A stretch of DNA of 33,166 nucleotides, taken from IMG/VR virus record IMGVR_UViG_3300035182_002289, positions 1-33,166 of that record. One strand, written 5' to 3'. Position 1 is the first letter of the stretch, and every line of letters starts with the position of its first letter. The DNA is from a virus. Position numbers and translations under genes: made by a program. Positions 4,319 to 6,568 of this stretch are shown here, piece after piece. A model generated the notes under the pieces. That model saw only the letters and a program-made list of their open reading frames with translations. It was not told where the DNA came from and did no database searches.

Positions 4319-6568
4319 TTATTTTCTGTAGCGATAACTCTCAAACCCTTCTGCGGCAAGAGGAATGTCTGGCGCCCACGGAGGGTTTGTCGCCATAATT
4401 TGTTCCAGCTCGTGTACCGTGTACCGGGGGGAGTCTGGAGTTTCGGTGACGTTCTCGTCGTGCACCGGCAGCACGACTGGGTACCCGGCGCGCTCTGCGT
4501 TTAATTGGCCAAACTTAAATATGTCCCTGGCAAAAGCTTGCACACAGTTTTCTACGATTTTTGGGCCTGCGGTATATATCCATTCCCATTTTTTGGTGAA
4601 TTGTCCGATACCTCTAAATCTTAACTTACCGGTATTTATGTCGTCTGTTTCGTCAGAATCGTCGTCCGCGTCTGCGACCCTCTTAATAGATTTTTCTATC
4701 CCCGCATAAACTTCCATCGCTGGGTAGCAGATATTGTGTCCGGAAGGGAGCACTATACGAACCCAATTACCAGATTTAATAGCGTACAGCCCATTTCCGA
4801 AATAAAACTTCTGTTTAGGGATAACTATAGCGGCGCGAACAGCCTCTTCGGTATCTTTCCAGAACGTCACTATGTTCGGATGCCCAGCGCGCCAAAGTCG
4901 CTTTAGACAATCTATGGCTACGAAAACAGGTTCGGGTAACTCTCTAGTTCTAATAGGTTTGTAATACTCCCAGTAGGCTTCAGGTCGGCCAATTCTTTTC
5001 GCGGATATTTTAGCTGCGCGTATATCCTGGTCGTTAAGCCATTTATAGAATTTTTCGGCATCTACCCGCGTACCTTCTGGTACAGAAGGCCGCACTCTAT
5101 CAGCAAGGTAGCTTAGGTCTATTCCGAATCCAGTAGCGAACGTAGCAACAGCGCCCACCCCACCGCCATACCCGCAGTTATGAACTATCAAATGCCCTGA
5201 ATCAGTTTTTATCGTGAACCTGTTGTTCGCACCCGCATGTGCAATGTCGTAAACAGGCTTCAAGGTAAATGATGTGGGTCTGCAGGTCGTAGACCTTTCT
5301 GCGGTTATCTTGGTTTTTTTGTTTGGTGATAAACCGTATGTTTCCGGGCTCATAATTCCCGTTAACATCGGTCCTATCCATCTCCAAAGTTGGATCGTCC
5401 CACCCAGGCAAAGTGATAAGGTGCGCGAGAAAAGCTCGTCTATCGTTTTCCCAACCTTTATGGACCGATATGCCCCTTCCACCGTAGTTGTGATATCCGG
5501 AATCTTTAGGGTTAAGACATCTGTTAAGGCAGGCCGCAATTCTGTGCAGCAGGCTTCTTCTAATTTTGACGTCTTCCACGAGGTCTGCATAGTTTGAATA
5601 ATTCTTCTGCCAGTATTTCGATACCTGTTTTGCGCAAGAGTTACACCGCGTACTACGCCCTTTATGCAGATTATATAGGTAGACTGTATGTTCCGGAGCC
5701 CCACAAGAGCACTGAACTTTGACGAAACGCAGTCCCCCGGCTTCACCCCATTCGAACCCTGTAACGGTAAGTTCTCCGAACCTATCTCCAATGCTAGGTG
5801 CAGGATGTTTTCGCTGGAAAGTACCTTTTTCGCTTCTACCCAAGACGGCCCCACCATTACGAGGTGATCCTCCGTCACATATACTCCGTCCAGATTTATT
5901 GTCTCCCGCATTCCCTTCTGAACTACCCCTAGATGTTTTACCCATGCTGTACCATCCCAAACTTTATCGGATATAGAAACGTCCACGATGCCTTTATATC
6001 CTGAATCGGTCAACACTTGGGTATCAGGGGCGAAACACGCTAATTCCAATACTTTTCCGACTTGCCTTTGGTCTTTTGTAACTTCGTCTGGGGTAATGTC
6101 AAAAGCTTTGGCATACGCGGCTTTATACAGGTCTGGACCTTCCCTAACGGGCTCCCCTTTTTTGTCCAAAACCTTATTACCCTCAAGGTCGTAGACGAAG
6201 GTGTCGTACTCTTTGAAGGCCGCCAGTTTCCAGGTTTCTCCGGCCAAATAGGCGAGTACTCGCCCCTCGATGTTTGCCAAGTCAGCGATCACGAGCTTGT
6301 TGCCCGGGGCTGCGCAGATCGAGTACCTGAGCGCGGAGCTGCAAAGCTCCATGCTGTCTATGTTGCACATGTTGAAGACGTCTTGGGCCCCTTCGAAGTG
6401 GTACTTTTTTATGATCTCCAGCCCGTGCTCTATGATCTTACGCGGGAGCGTCGGCCTTGGAAAATTTTGCGGCTGTACCATCCGGCCGCAATTAGATACG
6501 ACGGCCCCATCCACCATAAACCTATGGTTAGGTCCGGTATTCACTACATCGTATACTGGCACTTTCAT
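4319..6568 (-). CDS. DNA polymerase family A, C-terminal part: C-intein 1, polymerase and intein 2
   Basis: Second half of a split, intein-interrupted DNA polymerase I-type enzyme that would replicate phage DNA. Residues 1-26 are the C-terminal half of intein 1 (VPVYDVVNTGPNHRF, ending AVVSN), followed by cysteine +1 and the extein VQPQNFPRP. Polymerase motif A is IADLANIEGRV (Asp about 96). Motif B is split by intein 2 after KVLELA (residue 177) and resumes CGYGGG at 465. Motif C is VHDENV (about 702-707). It starts in an ATGA overlap with the GIY-YIG gene. After splicing with the 7422-8711 product, the exteins give about 766 residues of exonuclease plus polymerase. An acidic stretch DADDDSDETDD lies near residue 632. 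Confidence 0.93.
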   Translation of the reverse strand: MKVPVYDVVNTGPNHRFMVDGAVVSNCGRMVQPQNFPRPTLPRKIIEHGLEIIKKYHFEGAQDVFNMCNIDSMELCSSALRYSICAAPGNKLVIADLANIEGRVLAYLAGETWKLAAFKEYDTFVYDLEGNKVLDKKGEPVREGPDLYKAAYAKAFDITPDEVTKDQRQVGKVLELACFAPDTQVLTDSGYKGIVDVSISDKVWDGTAWVKHLGVVQKGMRETINLDGVYVTEDHLVMVGPSWVEAKKVLSSENILHLALEIGSENLPLQGSNGVKPGDCVSSKFSALVGLRNIQSTYIICIKGVVRGVTLAQNRYRNTGRRIIQTMQTSWKTSKLEEACCTELRPALTDVLTLKIPDITTTVEGAYRSIKVGKTIDELFSRTLSLCLGGTIQLWRWIGPMLTGIMSPETYGLSPNKKTKITAERSTTCRPTSFTLKPVYDIAHAGANNRFTIKTDSGHLIVHNCGYGGGVGAVATFATGFGIDLSYLADRVRPSVPEGTRVDAEKFYKWLNDQDIRAAKISAKRIGRPEAYWEYYKPIRTRELPEPVFVAIDCLKRLWRAGHPNIVTFWKDTEEAVRAAIVIPKQKFYFGNGLYAIKSGNWVRIVLPSGHNICYPAMEVYAGIEKSIKRVADADDDSDETDDINTGKLRFRGIGQFTKKWEWIYTAGPKIVENCVQAFARDIFKFGQLNAERAGYPVVLPVHDENVTETPDSPRYTVHELEQIMATNPPWAPDIPLAAEGFESYRYRK
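5177..6037 (-). other. Intein 2 in polymerase motif B (287 residues)
   Basis: Residues 178-464 of the polymerase C-terminal gene. Splicing block A is CFAPDTQVLTDSGY, block B includes VTEDHLV, block F is YDIAHAGANNRFTI and block G is LIVHN followed by Cys, so all residues for standard splicing are present. It sits between KVLELA and GYGGG, a functionally critical site typical for inteins. No LAGLIDADG motif is seen. The middle (about residues 270-430) is unusual sequence that coincides with another gene in a different frame. Confidence 0.9.
5202..5960 (-). CDS. HNH-like homing endonuclease nested out of frame in intein 2
   Basis: Same strand as the polymerase but another frame, wholly within intein 2 DNA. 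Up to 252 residues. The recognisable part starts at IGDRFGELTVTGF (about residue 57), continues with a zinc ribbon (CSCG, then CNSC), HNYGGRGISVHKGW and the C-terminal signature MDRTDVNGNYEPGN with QKNQDNRR. This order matches a widespread phage endonuclease-like family. The first 55 or so residues look non-conserved, so the real start may be a TTG further in or one of the ATGs at 5960 and 5945. The same bases encode intein motif LALEIGSENLPL and endonuclease motif IGDRFGELTV, so both frames look used. It is likely the mobility nuclease of intein 2. Confidence 0.8.
   Translation of the reverse strand: MGWYSMGKTSRGSSEGNAGDNKSGRSICDGGSPRNGGAVLGRSEKGTFQRKHPAPSIGDRFGELTVTGFEWGEAGGLRFVKVQCSCGAPEHTVYLYNLHKGRSTRCNSCAKQVSKYWQKNYSNYADLVEDVKIRRSLLHRIAACLNRCLNPKDSGYHNYGGRGISVHKGWENDRRAFLAHLITLPGWDDPTLEMDRTDVNGNYEPGNIRFITKQKNQDNRRKVYDLQTHIIYLEACLRHCTCGCEQQVHDKN
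6491..6568 (-). other. C-terminal half of split intein 1
   Basis: The first 26 codons of the downstream polymerase gene: MKVPVYDVVNTGPNHRF then MVDGAVVSN, followed by Cys. Block F is clear. Block G ends Ser-Asn rather than the usual His-Asn, so the penultimate histidine is missing. The partner N-half is at 7425-7721. Confidence 0.85.

Follow-up and report, generated by a model that had tools for sequence, protein, structure and literature searches.

A putative HNH homing-type endonuclease gene overprinted out of frame within an intein of a phage DNA polymerase

The second intein of a phage family-A DNA polymerase, which carries no nuclease in its own frame, very probably harbours the gene of an HNH homing-type endonuclease, overprinted out of frame on the same DNA; this reading is drawn from sequence comparison and structure prediction, and translation of the nested gene, splicing, cleavage and homing are inferred. 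The evidence consists of the anatomy of the segment, its conservation, the selection acting on each frame, the signature of the start site, the occurrence of related elements in divergent flanks, and the existence of intein-free alleles. The usual picture of inteins and their homing enzymes is either a fusion within a single polypeptide or two split halves with a free gene between them. In this case one DNA segment would serve as splicing linker in one frame and as nuclease in the other, as inferred without experiment.

According to the proposed mechanism, a mini-intein in the polymerase gained an out-of-frame HNH endonuclease gene. The polymerase frame would read through this gene and thereby acquire a disordered linker of approximately 160 residues; with the splicing halves on either side of it intact, the precursor could still splice (splicing being inferred). 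The HNH protein (247 aa) would be made separately by internal initiation at the ATG at 5945, with a Shine–Dalgarno (SD)-like sequence provided by the W-D-G codons of the intein. Most likely it would cut polymerase alleles that lack the intein, at the insertion site in motif B, and repair of the cut allele would copy intein and nuclease gene jointly.

Anatomy of intein 2 and of the overlapping HNH frame

The window is the whole stretch of viral DNA analysed (33,166 nucleotides). The frame of intein and polymerase is referred to as the intein frame, and the −1 frame of the intein on the same strand as the nested frame. The following features, all on the minus strand, were assigned:

4319 to 6568, minus strand: ORF comprising the C-part of split intein 1, a polymerase part, intein 2 and the polymerase C-part (ORF translation, domain/profile matches)
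5177 to 6037, minus strand: polymerase intein 2, class 1, C1 to N287 (C1, T55xxH58, D264, H286-N287, Cys+1)
5762 to 6037, minus strand: N-terminal splicing domain, intein residues 1–92 (pLDDT >90; intein frame conserved)
5276 to 5761, minus strand: intein linker, apparently the read-through of the nested gene and predicted to be disordered (pLDDT ~30; intein-frame dNN/dSN 0.64; missing in the Javan422 mini-intein)
5177 to 5275, minus strand: C-terminal splicing domain, intein residues 255–287, VYDI..RFTI..VHN (pLDDT ~93–95; intein-frame dNN/dSN 0.13–0.30)
5202 to 5945, minus strand: putative gene of a zinc-ribbon HNH endonuclease, nested in the −1 frame relative to the intein; 247 codons and a stop codon (phrog_374, 2.1e-32; core dNN/dNS 0.12; confident model for residues 51–230)
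5943 to 5945, minus strand: likely start of the nested gene, ATG (shares bases with intein codons 31–32; ATG in excess over expectation)
5949 to 5961, minus strand: SD-like stretch GGGATGG, encoded by W27-D28-G29 (upstream of ATG 5945; anti-SD pairing)

Intein 2 (CFAPDTQVLT...SGHLIVHN/C) is one contiguous open frame of 287 codons without a stop (6037 to 5177), its halves not lying on separate ORFs, and is inserted in the motif B/O-helix region of the polymerase (..GKVLELA/intein/CGYGGGVG..). The initial annotation had described 287 residues with intact splicing blocks, and all splicing residues were located as described. It had further described two long frames on the same strand; this double-frame observation is confirmed as real, LALEIGSENLPL and IGDRFGELTVTGF being read from identical bases, both on the minus strand. 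The third frame of the segment is closed throughout (longest run 26 codons).

Residues C1, T55, H58, D264, H286 and N287 and the Cys/Ser at +1 are each conserved in all of the 97 distinct inteins compared, the +1 residue being Cys in 89 and Ser in eight. The structure of the intein frame was predicted with confidence for residues 1–92 and 255–287, the stretch in between (93–254) remaining at a pLDDT of approximately 30, and a Foldseek search with the predicted model returned inteins, the DnaX mini-intein 7cfv as best match (E 8e-4, prob 1.00), followed by gp41-1 (6qaz). By predicted Hint fold and splicing residues the requirements for a class 1 intein are thus met; splicing activity is inferred. 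In the linker, predicted to be disordered, domain and profile searches matched no endonuclease model, which agrees with the initial remark that intein 2 has no LAGLIDADG motif. As a separate observation, profile phrog_93, labelled "endonuclease", matches the intein frame and not the nuclease frame, both in the window (6568 to 4319, minus strand) and in the related loci L206 and L214–L216; this label is a possible source of wrong annotation.

The same splicing residues bear on the annotation of the Sodalis phage SO-1 record, in which gp38/gp39 are treated as a group I intron with an HNH ORF. HNH ORFs are frequent in group I introns, and the insert in the window could be read likewise, but this is scarcely credible given the Hint fold matches, the retention of the splicing residues in 97/97 inteins, and the lack of any Rfam match in the window, in the SO-1 locus or in the related loci L003 and L006.

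The HNH family identity of the nested protein, judged from its sequence, is solid. Profile matches were obtained to the HNH endonuclease families phrog_374 (2.1e-32), phrog_3377 (1.1e-21) and phrog_2081 (1.1e-18) of PHROG, the first of which bears out the zinc-ribbon HNH-like endonuclease named at the outset; Pfam and NCBIfam contained no significant model for this protein. The 247 residues begin with a disordered N-terminus encoded by DNA of the intein N-domain; a zinc ribbon (CxC..CxxC) and an HNH-like core follow, and the protein ends in a helical tail that is partly encoded by DNA of the intein C-domain. Residues 51–230 were mostly predicted with confidence and residues 1–44 as disordered. 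When the predicted model was submitted to Foldseek against the PDB no significant match was returned, and a search of a viral structure library led to putative HNH homing endonucleases. The zinc-binding Cys pairs are present in 96 and the (L/M)DR..YxPxN core in 93 of the 97 relatives. The canonical first His of the HNH motif is not obvious: an invariant Asp-Arg (LDR/MDR) stands where Asp-His would be expected, in the relatives as well.

Conservation, selection and the start of the nested gene

A tblastn search with the nested protein matched 659 phage records, 166 of them with at least 80% coverage, and among the matches listed most host genes carry the annotation DNA polymerase or "intein-containing DNA polymerase precursor". 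In Pseudomonas phage MR14, Vibrio phage 97.13, EBPR siphovirus 2, Salmonella phage S10 and Escherichia phage K1_SXAU_B4 the HNH protein lies in the nested frame and the intein frame runs from C1 to HN; the −1-frame arrangement also occurs in Jerseyvirus and Kagunavirus. A scan of IMG/VR with the intein-frame alignment yielded at least 323 relatives. Both frames are open in 86/86 relatives (80 kept IMG/VR loci plus six sequences), the nested frame for 234–288 codons. Each of the 97 distinct inteins has a nested frame that stays open over 220 codons or more, and in none is the third frame open for 150 codons. An independent scan with the nested protein gave 48 intein-borne HNH loci and 32 free-standing ones; across the HNH match the polymerase frame stays open in all of the former and the intein frame in none of the latter (0/32). 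The nested protein thus has many homologues outside this locus, the absence of which would have refuted the overprinting proposed in the initial annotation.

When the HNH gene of the window was recoded with random synonymous codons, the intein frame acquired approximately five stops and was free of them in 0/400 trials; synonymous recoding of HNH proteins gave means of 4 to 6.4 stops. Because the recoding trials were never stop-free, the two open frames are not due to chance. A sequencing error or a chance ORF is ruled out by the HNH family match and by conservation in hundreds of loci. By sequence comparison, a single DNA segment is in double use, as intein linker and as HNH frame, and this use is conserved in hundreds of phages.

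Constraint was determined from 21 independent pairs, with substitutions classed by their effect in both frames. For the nested frame, the exteins give dNN/dNS values of 1.19 and 1.30; within the intein the ratio is 1.55 at positions 0–75, 0.76 (0.46–1.24) at 92–169, 0.29 (0.20–0.39) at 170–244, 0.12 (0.10–0.15) in the HNH core, 0.20 in the nested tail and 1.57 past the nested stop. According to this profile, selection on the nested frame starts inside the intein N-domain and stops at the nested stop; the first 26 codons are only weakly constrained (0.76, interval including 1). The substitution pattern, a test of constraint in both frames having been suggested in the initial annotation, shows strong purifying selection on the nested frame. 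For the intein frame, dNN/dSN lies at 0.13–0.30 across the outer splicing regions; the core has 0.64, as compared with 0.80–0.84 for a non-coding-frame control, and at intein positions 170–244 both frames are constrained. Mean pairwise identity (67 sequences) follows the same course: in the intein frame it is 0.46–0.56 for residues 1–60, 0.59–0.76 at the C-end and 0.19–0.33 in the middle, where that of the nested frame (0.36–0.62) crosses over it. Judged by these substitution data, the intein linker is close to neutral except for staying open, and strong constraint on the intein frame is confined to the splicing domains.

A relic, that is, an HNH gene formerly in frame or free-standing that was displaced by indels and is no longer made, could still be invoked, since free-standing HNH relatives are known and the present evidence includes no expression data. 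Such a relic is very improbable in view of the purifying selection over 21 independent pairs (dNN/dNS 0.12 in the core), of the frame being open in 97/97 with zinc ribbon (96/97) and core motif (93/97) retained, and of the conserved motifs kept by the window copy itself.

The start of the nested gene was located by synonymous reshuffling of the intein frame across the 97 relatives as null model. The invariant intein residues W27, W32 and W66 each yield NTG in the nested frame. At W32 (window 5945, intein position 92) this codon is ATG in 72, GTG in 21, TTG in four and CTG in none of the relatives, ATG being expected in only 39±4.5. The nested frame is open from the W32 start to W66 in 95/97, as compared with 27.8±4.1 expected, and shows no such excess in an upstream control region (open in 23, 31.6 expected); the two exceptions (L008 and L082) carry an ATG at position 116, directly past their stop. 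Pairing with the anti-SD sequence before position 92 has a mean of −7.1 kcal mol−1 and is below −4 in 97/97. The SD-like stretch stands there because the WDG codons of the intein produce it: the intein amino acids alone predict −6.8, and there is no sign that synonymous codons were chosen to strengthen the SD (−7.1 vs. −6.8).

The nested start is therefore probably the NTG around W32–V33, in the window ATG 5945, as far as codon statistics allow. The span of 5202 to 5960 given initially for the nested gene holds as an overlapping HNH ORF, which counts 252 codons from the first in-frame TTG (5960 to 5202, minus strand), but the evidence favours ATG 5945, and TTG 5960 is unlikely to be the start. 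A start at W66 (intein position 194) was likewise rejected (CTG in 9/97, weak SD, frame kept open upstream).

Programmed −1 frameshifting from the intein frame, which would give a polymerase–IntN–HNH fusion and no separate protein, would suit the −1 position of the nested frame, and a slippery heptamer occurs somewhere in positions 75–300 in 27/97 relatives. No such heptamer is present in the window or in the other 70, and the nested frame is kept open only downstream of the NTG at position 92, not before it; ATG is in excess and CTG absent at this position, and the two relatives with a stop past it have an ATG shortly downstream. Frameshifting is accordingly considered quite improbable. Internal initiation is the best reading of the ATG excess and of the frame kept open from W32, translation itself being inferred.

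Signs of mobility, intein-free sites and a second family

Streptococcus phage Javan422 carries a 168-residue mini-intein at the same motif B site and with the same KVWDGLNWVKH block, in which the nested gene and the long linker are both missing. Their joint absence follows naturally if linker and nested gene are one and the same; together with the near-neutral middle of the intein frame it supports the earlier proposal that the linker is read-through, and Javan422 is not the refuting case of a homologous intein that keeps the linker and lacks the nested frame. Intein-free polymerase sites were found in 28 records. In one pair of loci (L114/L115) the intein DNA is 88% identical and the flanks only 60% and 54%; another pair (L083/L087) displays the reverse contrast, the flanks being more alike than the intein. 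There are thus signs of horizontal movement of the intein, taken from similarity contrasts with no formal tree test.

The nested protein might also be made for another phage role, such as packaging, exclusion of rivals or regulation, as HNH proteins serve otherwise in phages and a packaging role is mentioned in PMC12613952. A role other than homing is regarded as unlikely, because the gene sits inside an intein, its product resembles putative HNH homing endonucleases, signs of transfer into divergent flanks exist, and so do intein-free alleles.

In APSE-7 and Caulobacter phage GB2A a related intein was found near polymerase motif C (GGK../C...VHN/CEN), with the HNH gene in the +1 frame. In a scan for this second family the intein frame was open across the HNH match in 37/44 tested loci; these inteins sit in polymerases, at several sites, and in SNF2-type phage helicases (L206, L214, L216). 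Here too the HNH frame is under constraint (dNN/dNS 0.15, 13 pairs); it starts with ATG or GTG in 30/35, and stretches such as GGAGGG precede the start in several. Two insertions, or one insertion and a change of frame, could lie behind the two families and are indistinguishable on present data. Separately, a 1278-aa polymerase ORF with two overprinted inteins, one with the HNH in −1 and the other in +1, was observed on a single contig (L117 and L195).

Since hundreds of phages have retained the double use, and both alternative frames are employed for it, it points to a class of mobile inteins whose homing enzyme annotation has mostly missed. With only modest conviction we favour the wider proposal that overprinted homing endonucleases made as separate proteins form a widespread intein class in phage replication genes, that they arose at least twice (−1 frame at polymerase motif B; +1 near motif C and in SNF2-type helicases), that their start sites were latent in intein codons, and that they are a plausible bridge from mini-inteins to fractured split inteins with free-standing nucleases. 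Overprinting would offer a route for nuclease genes into inteins. The overlap would tie intein and nuclease together genetically, as a clean natural system for the study of gene overprinting, and phage inteins classed as nuclease-less may often hide a nuclease.

Known systems and neighbouring features

Overprinted inteins are mostly unannotated, even in well-collected phages (Jerseyvirus), and several nested ORFs are annotated without being read as such: APSE-1 P46, SO-1 gp39 ("type I self-splicing intron"), LPSE1 gp01 and SS3e orf42. The literature search turned up no description of an HNH gene lying out of frame inside an intein, most subscription papers being outside its scope. Partial precedents are the HNH gene of the ShiLan methylase, which involves no intein, and the annotated but uninterpreted nested ORF of APSE-1.

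In-frame endonuclease inteins likewise combine splicing domain and homing enzyme in one DNA element, but the nuclease of intein 2 is encoded in another frame, from which a separate protein would be made. In fractured genes, reportedly described by Dassa et al. in 2009, the intein is split and a free-standing nuclease ORF sits between its two parts. The nuclease is separate from the intein in these as in intein 2, and intein 1 of the same polymerase looks to be of this type (GIY-YIG ORF), whereas intein 2 is contiguous and its nuclease gene overlaps the intein rather than interrupting it. Free-standing PHROG 374 HNH proteins belong to the same family and share the zinc ribbon and the YGGRG..W..(L/M)DR..YxPxN core, but overlap no second open frame (32/32 closed).

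APSE-1 P45/P46 (AF157835, NC_000935), an HNH ORF in another frame of a DNA polymerase gene, belongs to the second family and differs in its +1 frame and insertion site; the record names no intein, and the ORF is shortened (423 bases). Out-of-frame HNH genes without a splicing element were described in phage methylases by Arsenault, Gosselin and Gogarten, who left the mode of translation open (PMC11855218). As in the ShiLan methylase, the HNH gene of intein 2 lies in an alternative frame of an open insertion, with signs of homing and a proposed internal start (PMC11855218; Applejack, PMC12613952). The ShiLan insertion lacks a splicing element, is thought to remain in the protein and sits in another host gene, and it is for the nested gene of intein 2, unlike for ShiLan, that start-site and selection signatures were measured. 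The question raised by ShiLan, how hidden HNH genes are translated, thereby becomes directly testable. In the Guernseyvirinae-like phage Schulenberg no inteins and two free-standing HNH genes were reported (PMC6763661).

Some further observations were made in passing. In the SS3e record (NC_006940.2, 2920–3900) the polymerase lies in separate ORFs and the intein N frame continues into the HNH frame, which is either a sequencing error or a real fusion. In the window, a DHH-like phosphoesterase apparently extends across two overlapping frames (4150 to 3764 and 4002 to 3298, minus strand), possibly by a frameshift, as judged by eye. Intein 1 of the polymerase looks split (8711 to 7422, 7467 to 6565, and from 6568 onwards, minus strand): IntN is terminated by a stop (7422), the start of a free GIY-YIG ORF lies within IntN, and the stop of this ORF overlaps the ATG of IntC (..VVSN/CGRMVQ). 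No relatives of the GIY-YIG ORF were found when viral sequences were scanned. An ORF with HNH_3 and AP2 domains (9298 to 8711, minus strand) abuts the polymerase start, so that three nucleases of three kinds would lie in or beside one polymerase gene.
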